Positions 36-37,612 of a DNA stretch of 64,000 nucleotides are shown here, in pieces; the stretch's first letter is position 1, and each line of letters begins with the position of its first letter. The translations under genes and the position numbers were made by a program. The notes under the pieces were generated by a model. That model made no database searches. It was not told the DNA's origin and saw nothing but the letters and a program-made list of their open reading frames with translations. Source of the stretch: Veillonella sp. R32 (lineage in GTDB: Bacteria; Bacillota; Negativicutes; Veillonellales; Veillonellaceae); NCBI RefSeq assembly GCF_010093125.1, contig NZ_NMZQ01000026.1:1-64000 (forward strand), given 5' to 3'.

Positions 36-164
36 TAAATAGTGAACCAAATTAAAATGGTAGTCACTAGACGGTAGCAACAAACTTCAATCAATGAATT
101 ATCTAATGTGTAATATACAATATCTACACTTCTATGTGGTTTTCAGAGTACAAGCTCTGACAGA

Positions 165-280
<116 letters not shown>

Positions 281-290
281 TAATGAAAAT

Positions 291-326
291 AAAAGGTCGT
301 GTCGAAAGACACGGCCTTTTATTTTT
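291..326 (+). terminator. rRNA operon intrinsic terminator
   Basis: A 13-bp stem (AAAAGGTCGTGTC with GACACGGCCTTTT, one G-T pair), a GAAA tetraloop and a T-rich tail lie just after the 5S gene. This is a textbook Rho-independent terminator for the rRNA operon. Confidence 0.93.
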
Positions 327-426
327 GTTACTCTAACGAGTAACAATCTGTTCAGGCGCTTCCAAGAGGAGCTATTAGTAAGAGTATCTCAATAGGTAGA
401 GGTACAATAGAAGCGGCGTGGAATAA

Positions 427-579
427 ATAGTGAACCCCATTTGAAGGAGCGCTAGCGACGCGCAAATGGGTGTGAATCTTTTAGTTCGCAGCGTAAAATT
501 CTTCGGAGAAGAATTCACAGCTGACGAACAGATAGGAGAGGATACAGTATTTTAGTTTATTCGCTTCTACCTATCCGAC
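427..579. repeat. Structured intergenic repeat, copy A
   Basis: This is the most complete of three related copies. Stem 1 pairs CCCATTTG (436-443) with CAAATGGG (463-470). Stem 2 pairs GTTCG (484-488) with CGAAC (525-529) and AGC with GCT, and contains an 8-bp helix AATTCTTC/GAAGAATT (497-504 with 508-515) closed by a GGA loop. A third pairing joins GATAGG (531-536) and CCTATC (571-576). Open reading frames that cross the copies on both strands look like by-products of the repeat. The function is unknown. Confidence 0.8.
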
Positions 580-590
580 CAGAAGCTGGG

Positions 591-714
591 AATAAGTAGT
601 GAACCGACTTTGAAGGACCAAAGGGACGCGCAAAGTCGTGTGAATCTCTTAGTTCGGGGCGTAAGATTTCTCGGAGAGAAATCCCCAGCATCCGAACAGA
701 CGTATTTAAAACGT
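591..714. repeat. Structured intergenic repeat, copy B (covarying stems)
   Basis: The architecture matches copy A but with different stem sequences. Stem 1 is CGACTTTG/CAAAGTCG (605-612 with 631-638). Stem 2 has GTTCGG/CCGAAC (652-657 with 692-697) and an inner helix GATTTCTC/GAGAAATC (665-672 with 676-683) with the same GGA loop. At least six base pairs differ from copy A with both partners changed, so the fold seems to be what is conserved. The tail CAGCATCCGAACAGA recurs at about 848. Confidence 0.8.
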
Positions 715-727
715 ACTAAGTGCGACG

Positions 728-875
728 CACAAATGGGAGTGAATCTTTTAGTTCGCAGCGTAAAATTCTTCGAAGAAGAATTCACAGCTGACGAACAGAT
801 AGGAAAGAATGCAGTATTTTAGTTTATTCGCTTCTACCTATCCGACCACAGCATCCGAACAGATGTATTTAAAAT
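728..875. repeat. Structured intergenic repeat, copy C plus partial tail of copy B
   Basis: From 731 the copy is nearly identical to copy A: GTTCG/CGAAC at 751-755 and 792-796, inner helix AATTCTTC/GAAGAATT with a GAA loop, and GATAGG/CCTATC at 798-803 and 838-843. The 5' arm of stem 1 is missing, replaced by sequence running on from copy B. From 848 the tail of copy B is repeated. The arrangement suggests tandem duplication and recombination between copies. Confidence 0.75.
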
Positions 876-887
876 ATTTATATAGTT

Positions 888-915
888 GACATCAACTTAG
901 GTTGGTGTCTTTTTT
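888..915 (+). terminator. Intrinsic terminator after the repeat region
   Basis: GACATCAAC, a TTAG loop, GTTGGTGTC and a run of seven T form a Rho-independent terminator. It would stop any transcript entering from the repeat block before moaB. Confidence 0.8.
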
Positions 916-978
916 GTTTATAACGCTCTATCTTCTTTATACCTTACAAAAATTTTACAATTCATAATTCTAATACGC

Positions 979-1008
979 TTAACTATCTTCTCACATTCGT
1001 GGTATACT
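979..1008 (+). promoter_or_regulatory. Probable moaB promoter
   Basis: TTAACT and TATACT are separated by 18 bases, about 65 bases before the moaB start. The -10 box is good and the -35 box is weak. Confidence 0.4.
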
Positions 1009-1072
1009 GATAGTAAAGACTTTGTAAATTATCAAAGATTTGTAAAATATATTCTTATGGGAGGTAAGAAGA

Positions 1073-1570
1073 ATGTCATTGCAGGAAGTATTAGAACGGC
1101 CTTTAGTTTTAGGCGTTCTGACTGTATCAGATACACGTACTCCAGATACTGATAAAGGTGGCGATACAGTTGTTTCATTGGTAGAGGAAGGAGGCCACAT
1201 AGTCAAAGTTAGAACCATCGTTCCTGATGATTTTATAAAGATTACGGAAGTATTGCAGCGATGGATTGCCATAGAAAGTTTAGATGGCATAATTTTAACA
1301 GGTGGTACAGGGATAGCCAAACGAGATGTCTCTATTGAAGTAGTAGCATCTTTATGCCAGAAAGAAATTCCAGGTTTTGGTGAGCTATTTAGGTATTTTA
1401 GTTATACTGAGGATATTGGGACTCGTGCCATTGCTTCTCGTGCTATGGCAGGTGTTTGCGATAATGTATTACTCTTCTCTTTGCCTGGATCTGTGGGCGC
1501 TGTTACTTTAGGTATTAATCGATTAATATTACCTGAAATACGTCATTTAGTGTATGAAATCAATAAATAG
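1073..1570 (+). CDS. moaB: Molybdenum cofactor biosynthesis protein MoaB/Mog family
   Basis: A 165-residue protein of the MoaB/Mog family, which acts late in molybdenum cofactor synthesis by adenylylating molybdopterin in the cytoplasm. The MoCF-binding fold is visible: an N-terminal TVSDTRTPDTDKGGD region, a central GIILTGGTGIAKRD nucleotide/pterin-binding loop, and a C-terminal FSLPGSVGAV segment. Length is typical of a stand-alone MoaB (about 160-175). A GGGAGG ribosome-binding site precedes the ATG. No other moa or moe gene lies nearby, so its partners must be elsewhere. MoaB and MogA are hard to separate by eye; MoaB is the usual name for this short form in Firmicutes. Confidence 0.85.
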   Translation: MSLQEVLERPLVLGVLTVSDTRTPDTDKGGDTVVSLVEEGGHIVKVRTIVPDDFIKITEVLQRWIAIESLDGIILTGGTGIAKRDVSIEVVASLCQKEIPGFGELFRYFSYTEDIGTRAIASRAMAGVCDNVLLFSLPGSVGAVTLGINRLILPEIRHLVYEINK

Positions 1571-37307: not shown

Positions 37308-37612
37308 TAGAAATACTCTTATAAAGAGAGCAGGCGTTGAAGAGGAAAAATCTTCTCCTAGCGTGGCAGAGAGCGTTGATAAGGTGGGAGCAACGTACGT
37401 GAATAGAAGAGGGTAGCCTTGGAGCTGATGAGATGAACTTACAATGGAGTCTGTCGGTATTACTACATCGGTAGTAAGCCGAGGTGGTATTGTAATGCGT
37501 AGTTTTATCCGGTTAACCCCGTTAACGGTAATGAGTGATTGCTACGGCAATAATCTAGGTGGTACCGCGGAAGTTAAGCCCTTTCGTCCTAATGGACGAG
37601 AGGGCTTTTTTT
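37308..37612 (+). promoter_or_regulatory. T-box riboswitch upstream of valS
   Basis: The leader carries the invariant T-box core AGGTGGTACCGCGG (37557-37570), which pairs with the uncharged tRNA acceptor end, and then an intrinsic terminator (stem AAGCCCTTTCGTCC with GGACGAGAGGGCTT, 37576-37607, then T7). About 240 bases of stem-rich sequence precede it. Uncharged tRNA-Val should favour the antiterminator and raise valS expression. I could not place the specifier codon with confidence; valine is inferred from the gene. Confidence 0.92.

Follow-up and report, generated by a model that had tools for sequence, protein, structure and literature searches.

Most of what is known about structured interspersed repeats in bacteria comes from enterobacteria, neisseriae and streptococci. 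REP/BIME sequences of enterobacteria and other groups, which are associated with RAYT transposases, are generally understood to be short, many-copy, hairpin-forming repeats that lie between genes, often near stop codons, and show no target duplication. BOX elements of Streptococcus pneumoniae are modular repeats with a conserved secondary structure that form mosaic arrays. Also comparable are 23S intervening sequences, which are short stem-loop insertions tied to rRNA genes, and non-autonomous elements derived from IS200/IS605, which have a left and a right hairpin and for which no target duplication is seen.

Here we describe a structured element of Negativicutes that was found in a 64,000-nt stretch of DNA from Veillonella sp. 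R32 (contig NZ_NMZQ01000026.1, positions 1 to 64,000; hereafter the window) and that shares these traits with each of the systems above. It works like REP and BOX repeats and, as is the case for REP, it is a short hairpin repeat with many intergenic copies. In contrast to REP/BIME, it has a larger fold with two G.A internal loops and adjoins mature rRNA and tRNA ends. It fails the RAYT features of REP, as no RAYT gene is flanked by its copies and Y1 proteins are missing in many carriers. BOX, with which it was compared by description, is set apart by host class and structure, and we know of no tie of BOX to rRNA or tRNA ends. Unlike 23S intervening sequences, the element sits at borders and in spacers rather than within rRNA, and tRNA and protein genes have copies as well; all classified matches lie outside rRNA genes save for a 2-nt overlap with the model end, some rRNA stretches being masked as N. 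Elements derived from IS200/IS605 differ in that our copies have no related Y1 gene beside them, and many carriers have none at all; nor was a full-length IS relative seen beside the copies.

No Rfam family matches the element. At the gathering score, all Rfam 15 matches in the window and at related loci were to rRNA, tRNA, T-box or riboswitch families, and a permissive scan of window positions 300-1080 returned chance-level matches only. No description of the element was found in the open-licence literature, subscription papers being outside this search. Within Rfam 15 and that literature, the sequence-only reading of this DNA was thus right to match the repeat to no named family.

A probably recombined array between an rRNA operon and moaB

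All features of the array are given for the plus strand. The 23S-5S spacer holds an apparent remnant of the element (AAATAGTGAACCAAATT..., 37..60), recognisable as a 29-nt direct repeat of copies A and B with 69% identity; at the matching place, the 23S-5S spacer of a same-genus genome (L044) contains a full copy. The 5S rRNA gene follows (165..281; cmscan RF00001, 82.4 bits), with GATAGGTAGTCGC as its 3' end. Behind it, a hairpin with a T-rich tail (295..326), read from the sequence, is the probable terminator of the rRNA operon; a simple scan lists this hairpin in its minus-strand form only. The array is located downstream of this probable terminator.

The array is preceded by a leader segment (369..424) that recurs ahead of other elements in the genome (L009, L011). 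Copy A (425-532) matches model R1, which comprises hairpin 1 (H1) and hairpin 2 (H2), with 114.8 bits. Its H1 (425..484), also matched at 425-484 by the H1-only model R2, has the stem CCCATTTG/CAAATGGG and internal loops with tandem G.A; its H2 (485..532) corresponds to consensus helices 4 and 5. Between copies A and B, a spacer hairpin (TTTATTC-GCTTCT...AGAAGC-TGG-GAATAAG, 556..596) can be read that resembles an inverted 5S 3' end (548-582 versus 257-291, an inverted repeat of 35 nt with 74% identity). Copy B (594-700) scores 125.9 bits with R1 and consists of H1 (594..652; R2 match 594-652) with the stem CGACTTTG/CAAAGTCG and, according to the consensus structure, H2 (653..700). The tail of copy B (CGTATTTAAAACGTACTAAG, 701..721) forms a junction to copy C that is the same in contigs C33, C53 and C58 of this genome. 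Copy C (722..799) comprises the 3' half of H1 plus H2 and lacks the 5' half of H1; it is 95% identical to copy A, and R1 matches it at 708-799 with 57.6 bits. It is followed by a second copy of the post-A spacer, cut within the hairpin (800..848), so that 722-848 repeats 455-581 with 95% identity. Joined to the cut spacer is a fragment that carries the end of H2 and the tail from copy B (846..875), where 846-874 (29 nt) matches 683-711 with 93% identity. A terminator-like hairpin found by the simple scan closes the array (888..915), and the right-hand neighbour is a moaB/mogA-like gene (1073..1570; PF00994, E 3.2e-27). The three related copies and the partial tail beyond copy C, first noticed from the sequence alone between the rRNA operon and moaB, are thereby located.

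In the Veillonella sp. R32 genome, copies follow 5S at four operon ends (C18, C33, C58, C28), and one cluster adjoins the remnant of an ISL3-type transposase (C53). Downstream of the array on C58, the minus strand encodes a large protein (L011, ~690-2570) that, judging from its sequence, resembles a trimeric autotransporter adhesin with an S-layer-type domain. The 5S end sequence GATAGGTAGTCGC is repeated directly after type-C elements at several Veillonella loci (L009, positions 818 and 1104; L012, position 547 in reverse reading; L046; L052).

Distribution across Negativicutes

Of the genomes searched with R1 and R2, carriers made up 6 of 7 in the genus, 45 of 61 in the order and 83 of 300 in the class, and copy number ranged from 0 to 54; the repeat family proposed from a single locus therefore has further copies in related genomes. 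One same-genus genome (G003) returned no match. There was no carrier outside Negativicutes among 398 sampled genomes of the phylum, and an exact-pattern scan of 84,980 species (257 Gb) gave 92 stretches, which, among the matches listed, come from Negativicutes throughout, including Phascolarctobacterium, Selenomonas and Megasphaera. Plasmids and phages searched with copy A, and viral contigs searched with one exact pattern, gave no match. As far as searched, the element is restricted to Negativicutes.

A fold conserved through compensatory change

Copies A and B share a fold of two hairpins, within which both sides have changed at about eight pairs. Three of these pairs belong to stem 1 and three to the inner helix of stem 2; a further pair lies in an outer helix, where AAA/TTT becomes AAG/CTT, and another in the apical helix, where GC/GC becomes CC/GG. 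The at least six compensatory changes first counted between them are thus borne out. When folding was compared with that of shuffled sequences, z was -4.2 for copy A and -2.5 for copy B.

Across the family, the folded repeat measures roughly 60-160 nt. H1 accounts for ~59 nt; its stem is variable, and both internal loops, with their tandem G.A pairs, are nearly invariant. The consensus of H1 runs from an outer helix AAGY/RCTT through a first loop AGnGA/GARTC, a variable stem of 7-8 bp and a second loop GGA/GAC to an apical GC/GC helix. H2 is the second, lineage-specific hairpin. Together they form a unit of about 90 nt in Sporomusaceae and of 107 nt or more in Veillonella.

Pairs were counted in an alignment of 12 full copies from the Veillonella sp. 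R32 genome and two relatives. Here, 97.7% of cells pair, compared with 32-43% after a shift of one strand by 1-3 columns, and 16 of 33 pairs show double changes. For H1 only, 36 diverse copies have double changes in 14 of 17 pairs. Covariation was then assessed in 76 non-redundant H1 copies using G-statistics with average-product correction, against a tree-based null that redistributes the changes in each column. Six pairs covary at E < 0.05, all six within the proposed stems and none outside; the procedure is our own imitation of R-scape with 60 replicates, in which weak pairs were not judged, and the alignment was built with a model that already holds the structure. In this form, rather than with R-scape itself, the covariation exceeds the phylogenetic background. 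The fold is conserved through compensatory change, and both the six covarying pairs and the slide control argue for selection on a folded molecule, as had been suspected from copies A and B. The further claim that structure rather than sequence is conserved stands for the stems, which change in pairs; it does not for the internal loops, whose sequences are more conserved than the stems.

Several additional structural ideas were dropped. A pseudoknot between an AAGGAG loop and the UCCU tail failed because the pairing bases did not co-vary. The first loop was likened to the hairpin ribozyme, but, compared by eye, the loop sizes differ and the second loop has no correspondence. For H2, a perfect 5-bp arm is present in 53 of 113 copies and 25 in shuffles, a criterion that is too crude.

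Placement at gene ends

Gaps between the gene's 3' end and the element were measured in 150 aligned matches. At tRNA genes, the element begins 1 nt past CCA (11 copies). At 23S, the gap is -2 in 11, 0 in 2 and +1 in 1 of 14 cases, the value of -2 reflecting where the rRNA reference ends; after 16S it is 8 or 16 nt (5 copies). Within 300 nt of a stable RNA lie 22 of 22 copies in G133, 17 of 31 in G093, 11 of 14 in G032, 4 of 7 in G022 and 4 of 4 in G114, counted on matches of the aligned set with some weak ones left out. The expected share is at most 3-5% (at most 3.1% for G133 and G093) if up to 15 rRNA operons are assumed. Away from stable RNAs, copies often begin at a stop codon, the gene being in sense orientation. 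The reading frame at L208 is ended by the element's own TAA, 0-2 nt separate the stop codon from the element at L268, L270 and L242, and at L207 the frame of a cysteine-rich peptide runs, by direct reading, into the element's TGA. Relative to nearby stable RNAs, ~80 copies of one set are sense and 17 antisense, although those at rRNA are not independent; another set has 19 sense and 1 antisense. Antisense copies adjoin 5' borders of 5S and tRNA genes. The copies are thus placed at gene borders, mostly in sense. The initial description of copies that follow an rRNA operon is correct for Veillonella sp. R32 and too narrow for the family, which also occupies borders of 16S, 23S, 5S and tRNA genes and stop codons of protein genes.

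Gene-end placement is not universal, because in Dialister (G014) H1 sits in a mosaic of palindromes away from stable RNAs: 42 of 45 pattern matches have none within 600 nt. In Dialister succinatiphilus (L212-L231), this larger mosaic is made of GC-rich palindromic modules (e.g. TTTGACGGCC..GGCCGAGG) in many copies. Repeated tRNA-Val 3' ends lie beside antisense H1 at L125 and L131 (in a Megasphaera-like genome and Dialister succinatiphilus) and give the impression of a joint duplication of tRNA end, terminator and element.

The placement raises the question whether the element is a host RNA signal by which stable RNAs are processed or their 3' ends protected. In this case, a hairpin directly after 23S or CCA would mark or guard the mature end, whereas at stop codons the copies would stabilise mRNAs. 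Exact placement at mature 3' ends and the sense bias fit such a role, as does the presence of H1 at the 23S 3' end in genomes of Veillonella, Megasphaera-like bacteria, Selenomonadaceae and Sporomusaceae. However, many relatives manage without the element, including the same-genus genome G003, as do sister tRNA spacers within one genome (G151), and antisense copies exist. Moreover, most copies in the window and in the genus lie beyond the probable rRNA terminator and therefore would not be part of the main transcript. We consider a host signal unlikely.

Marks of insertion or copying

In the Sporomusaceae genome G093, loci with unrelated flanks have a unit of 89-91 nt in common, which starts with (A)TAAGCAG and ends near TCCT. 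Paralogous filled and empty sites are seen in the tRNA-Glu/Val spacers of G151, where L279 and L284 are filled and L272 is empty (7 nt); the L272 spacer may have arisen by deletion instead of being ancestrally empty. Elsewhere in Sporomusaceae, these tRNA-Glu/Val spacers contain a different repeat of TTCGA/TCGAA words, which begins soon after CCA (L273, L275, L276, L278, L281, L282, L285, L287, L288). Nested copies occur at L043, L193, L195, L196 and L198. The newer copies begin within older ones after ..GA or ..CA, and at L043 the older copy resumes past the newer one with ~15 nt missing.

Judged from the sequences, nesting, spacers and units of ~90 nt are marks of insertion or copying. The copies are interspersed, some lie nested within others, and their presence is polymorphic. 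The common unit in unrelated flanks, the filled and empty spacers and the nesting therefore describe an interspersed repeat that spreads by insertion or by copying, and together with the arrays they support the recombination or mobility originally suggested by copy C and the partial tail. Mobility rests on this pattern, since neither a target duplication around the copies examined nor an autonomous relative or enzyme was found.

We therefore regard the element as probably a structured, interspersed repeat of Negativicutes that resembles REP and BOX and has an unusual placement at gene ends, with the window containing a recombined cluster of copies. The unit probably carries no genes and would be copied in trans by a separate enzyme, for which the folded transcript or single strand may be the form that is recognised. 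Insertion at gene borders would be tolerated because it damages nothing. Subsequently, rRNA operons could spread copies via gene conversion, and unequal or illegitimate recombination could generate arrays like that of the window. This proposal agrees with the short overlaps seen where segments of the array meet, such as CC(A)CAGC near 845.

Further points weigh against this explanation. Copies at the 23S 3' end in several families might have been inherited from an ancestor and not inserted there, and since operons convert each other, rRNA borders do not supply independent counts. We picked the loci by score and in sets from a few genomes, not randomly.

Candidate enzymes and other origins

If the element were a REP sequence moved by a RAYT or another Y1 transposase of the IS200/IS605 kin, the enzyme would act on single-stranded DNA hairpins. 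This would account for a short, hairpin-forming repeat that has no visible target duplication and is often found beside stop codons, and element-rich Sporomusaceae do encode long Y1 proteins of RAYT-like size. G-T pairs are also rare, with 2.8% of the standard pairs in the element and 6.6% in tRNA stems. In the four most variable pairs, however, they reach about 7%, near the tRNA level; this rarity is thus weak evidence, and we dropped it as proof of a DNA structure. Many carriers have no Y1 protein (among them Veillonella sp. R32, which is G000, as well as G001, G046, G014, G022 and G255), and H1 lies within ~1.5 kb of 0 of 20 Y1 loci, even at E 1. A Y1 or RAYT driver is therefore not supported, and we think this origin very unlikely. 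The long Y1 proteins (250-310 aa), of which there are several in each of the Sporomusaceae genomes G133, G151, G160 and G114, are not associated with H1.

Compensatory changes can also arise without selection, as template switching during replication is a known process that corrects quasi-palindromes and here would have made imperfect ones perfect. The nearly perfect stems are what it would leave behind. Yet the most conserved positions of the element are non-canonical: in 35 of 36 copies, the GGA/GAC loop has tandem G.A, with G.A followed by A.G across the two strands, and the first loop, AGnGA/GARTC, has G.T in 36 of 36 and A.C in 35 of 36. In 7 of the 36 copies, G.A/A.G of the first loop is replaced as a unit by G-C/C-G. 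The retained loop mismatches argue against template switching, because correction would erase them, and we judge it highly improbable as the source of the paired changes.

Scarcely credible is a reverse-transcribed or other RNA-level element that joins RNA 3' ends before insertion, which would suit the mostly sense orientation of the copies and the exactness with which they start past CCA, at the ends of 23S or at stop codons, but which is at odds with the antisense copies at 5' borders of 5S and tRNA genes and with the absence of reverse transcriptase (PF00078) from 6 of 15 carriers tested (Veillonella sp. R32, G001, G046, G032, G022, G255).

Since Y1 proteins are absent from many carriers and reverse transcriptase from several, neither is a universal driver today. 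It is possible that the mobilising enzyme has since been lost from Veillonella or falls outside both families. A repeated gene beside three G093 copies was considered as a transposase and rejected, as its translation suggests a hydrogenase-like paralogue.

Significance and associated observations

A REP/BOX-like repeat of this kind would offer a clean system for how gene-less repeats find safe sites, and allows one to ask whether a hairpin just past a mature RNA end affects maturation. It helps to explain the large length differences of rRNA and tRNA spacers in Negativicutes and would make a useful new family model for annotation. What sets the family apart is its class-wide range, with strong covariation and near single-base placement at the ends of rRNA, tRNA and coding genes, in an element new to Rfam 15.

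A bolder reading, which we hold to be decidedly unlikely, is that of a class-wide parasite or processing module. Its folded RNA would recognise or create mature 3' ends of rRNA, tRNA and mRNA, with insertion via RNA ends, or the element would be removed precisely at the border of the gene, through its own activity or that of a dedicated enzyme, and hence be harmless to the host. To our knowledge, neither RNA-end insertion nor excision at the gene border has been described for bacterial interspersed repeats.

In G022, H1 seemed to lie at the end of a transposable gene (L266, L267), which is in fact a composite repeat of ~290 nt that contains no clear reading frame. Its three copies (L266 97-382 and 1595-1880, L267 985-1320; 98-99% identity) begin at H1 and also bear another structured segment. 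On contig C1 of G114, three H1 matches (26000, 51748 and 77496) are exactly 25,748 bases apart, and the two examined (L261, L262) are antisense and next to 23S. This spacing suggests a tandem, rRNA-bearing duplication of 25.7 kb or an assembly effect. Elsewhere in the window, a T-box leader is present on the plus strand (37328-37594; RF00230, 102 bits).
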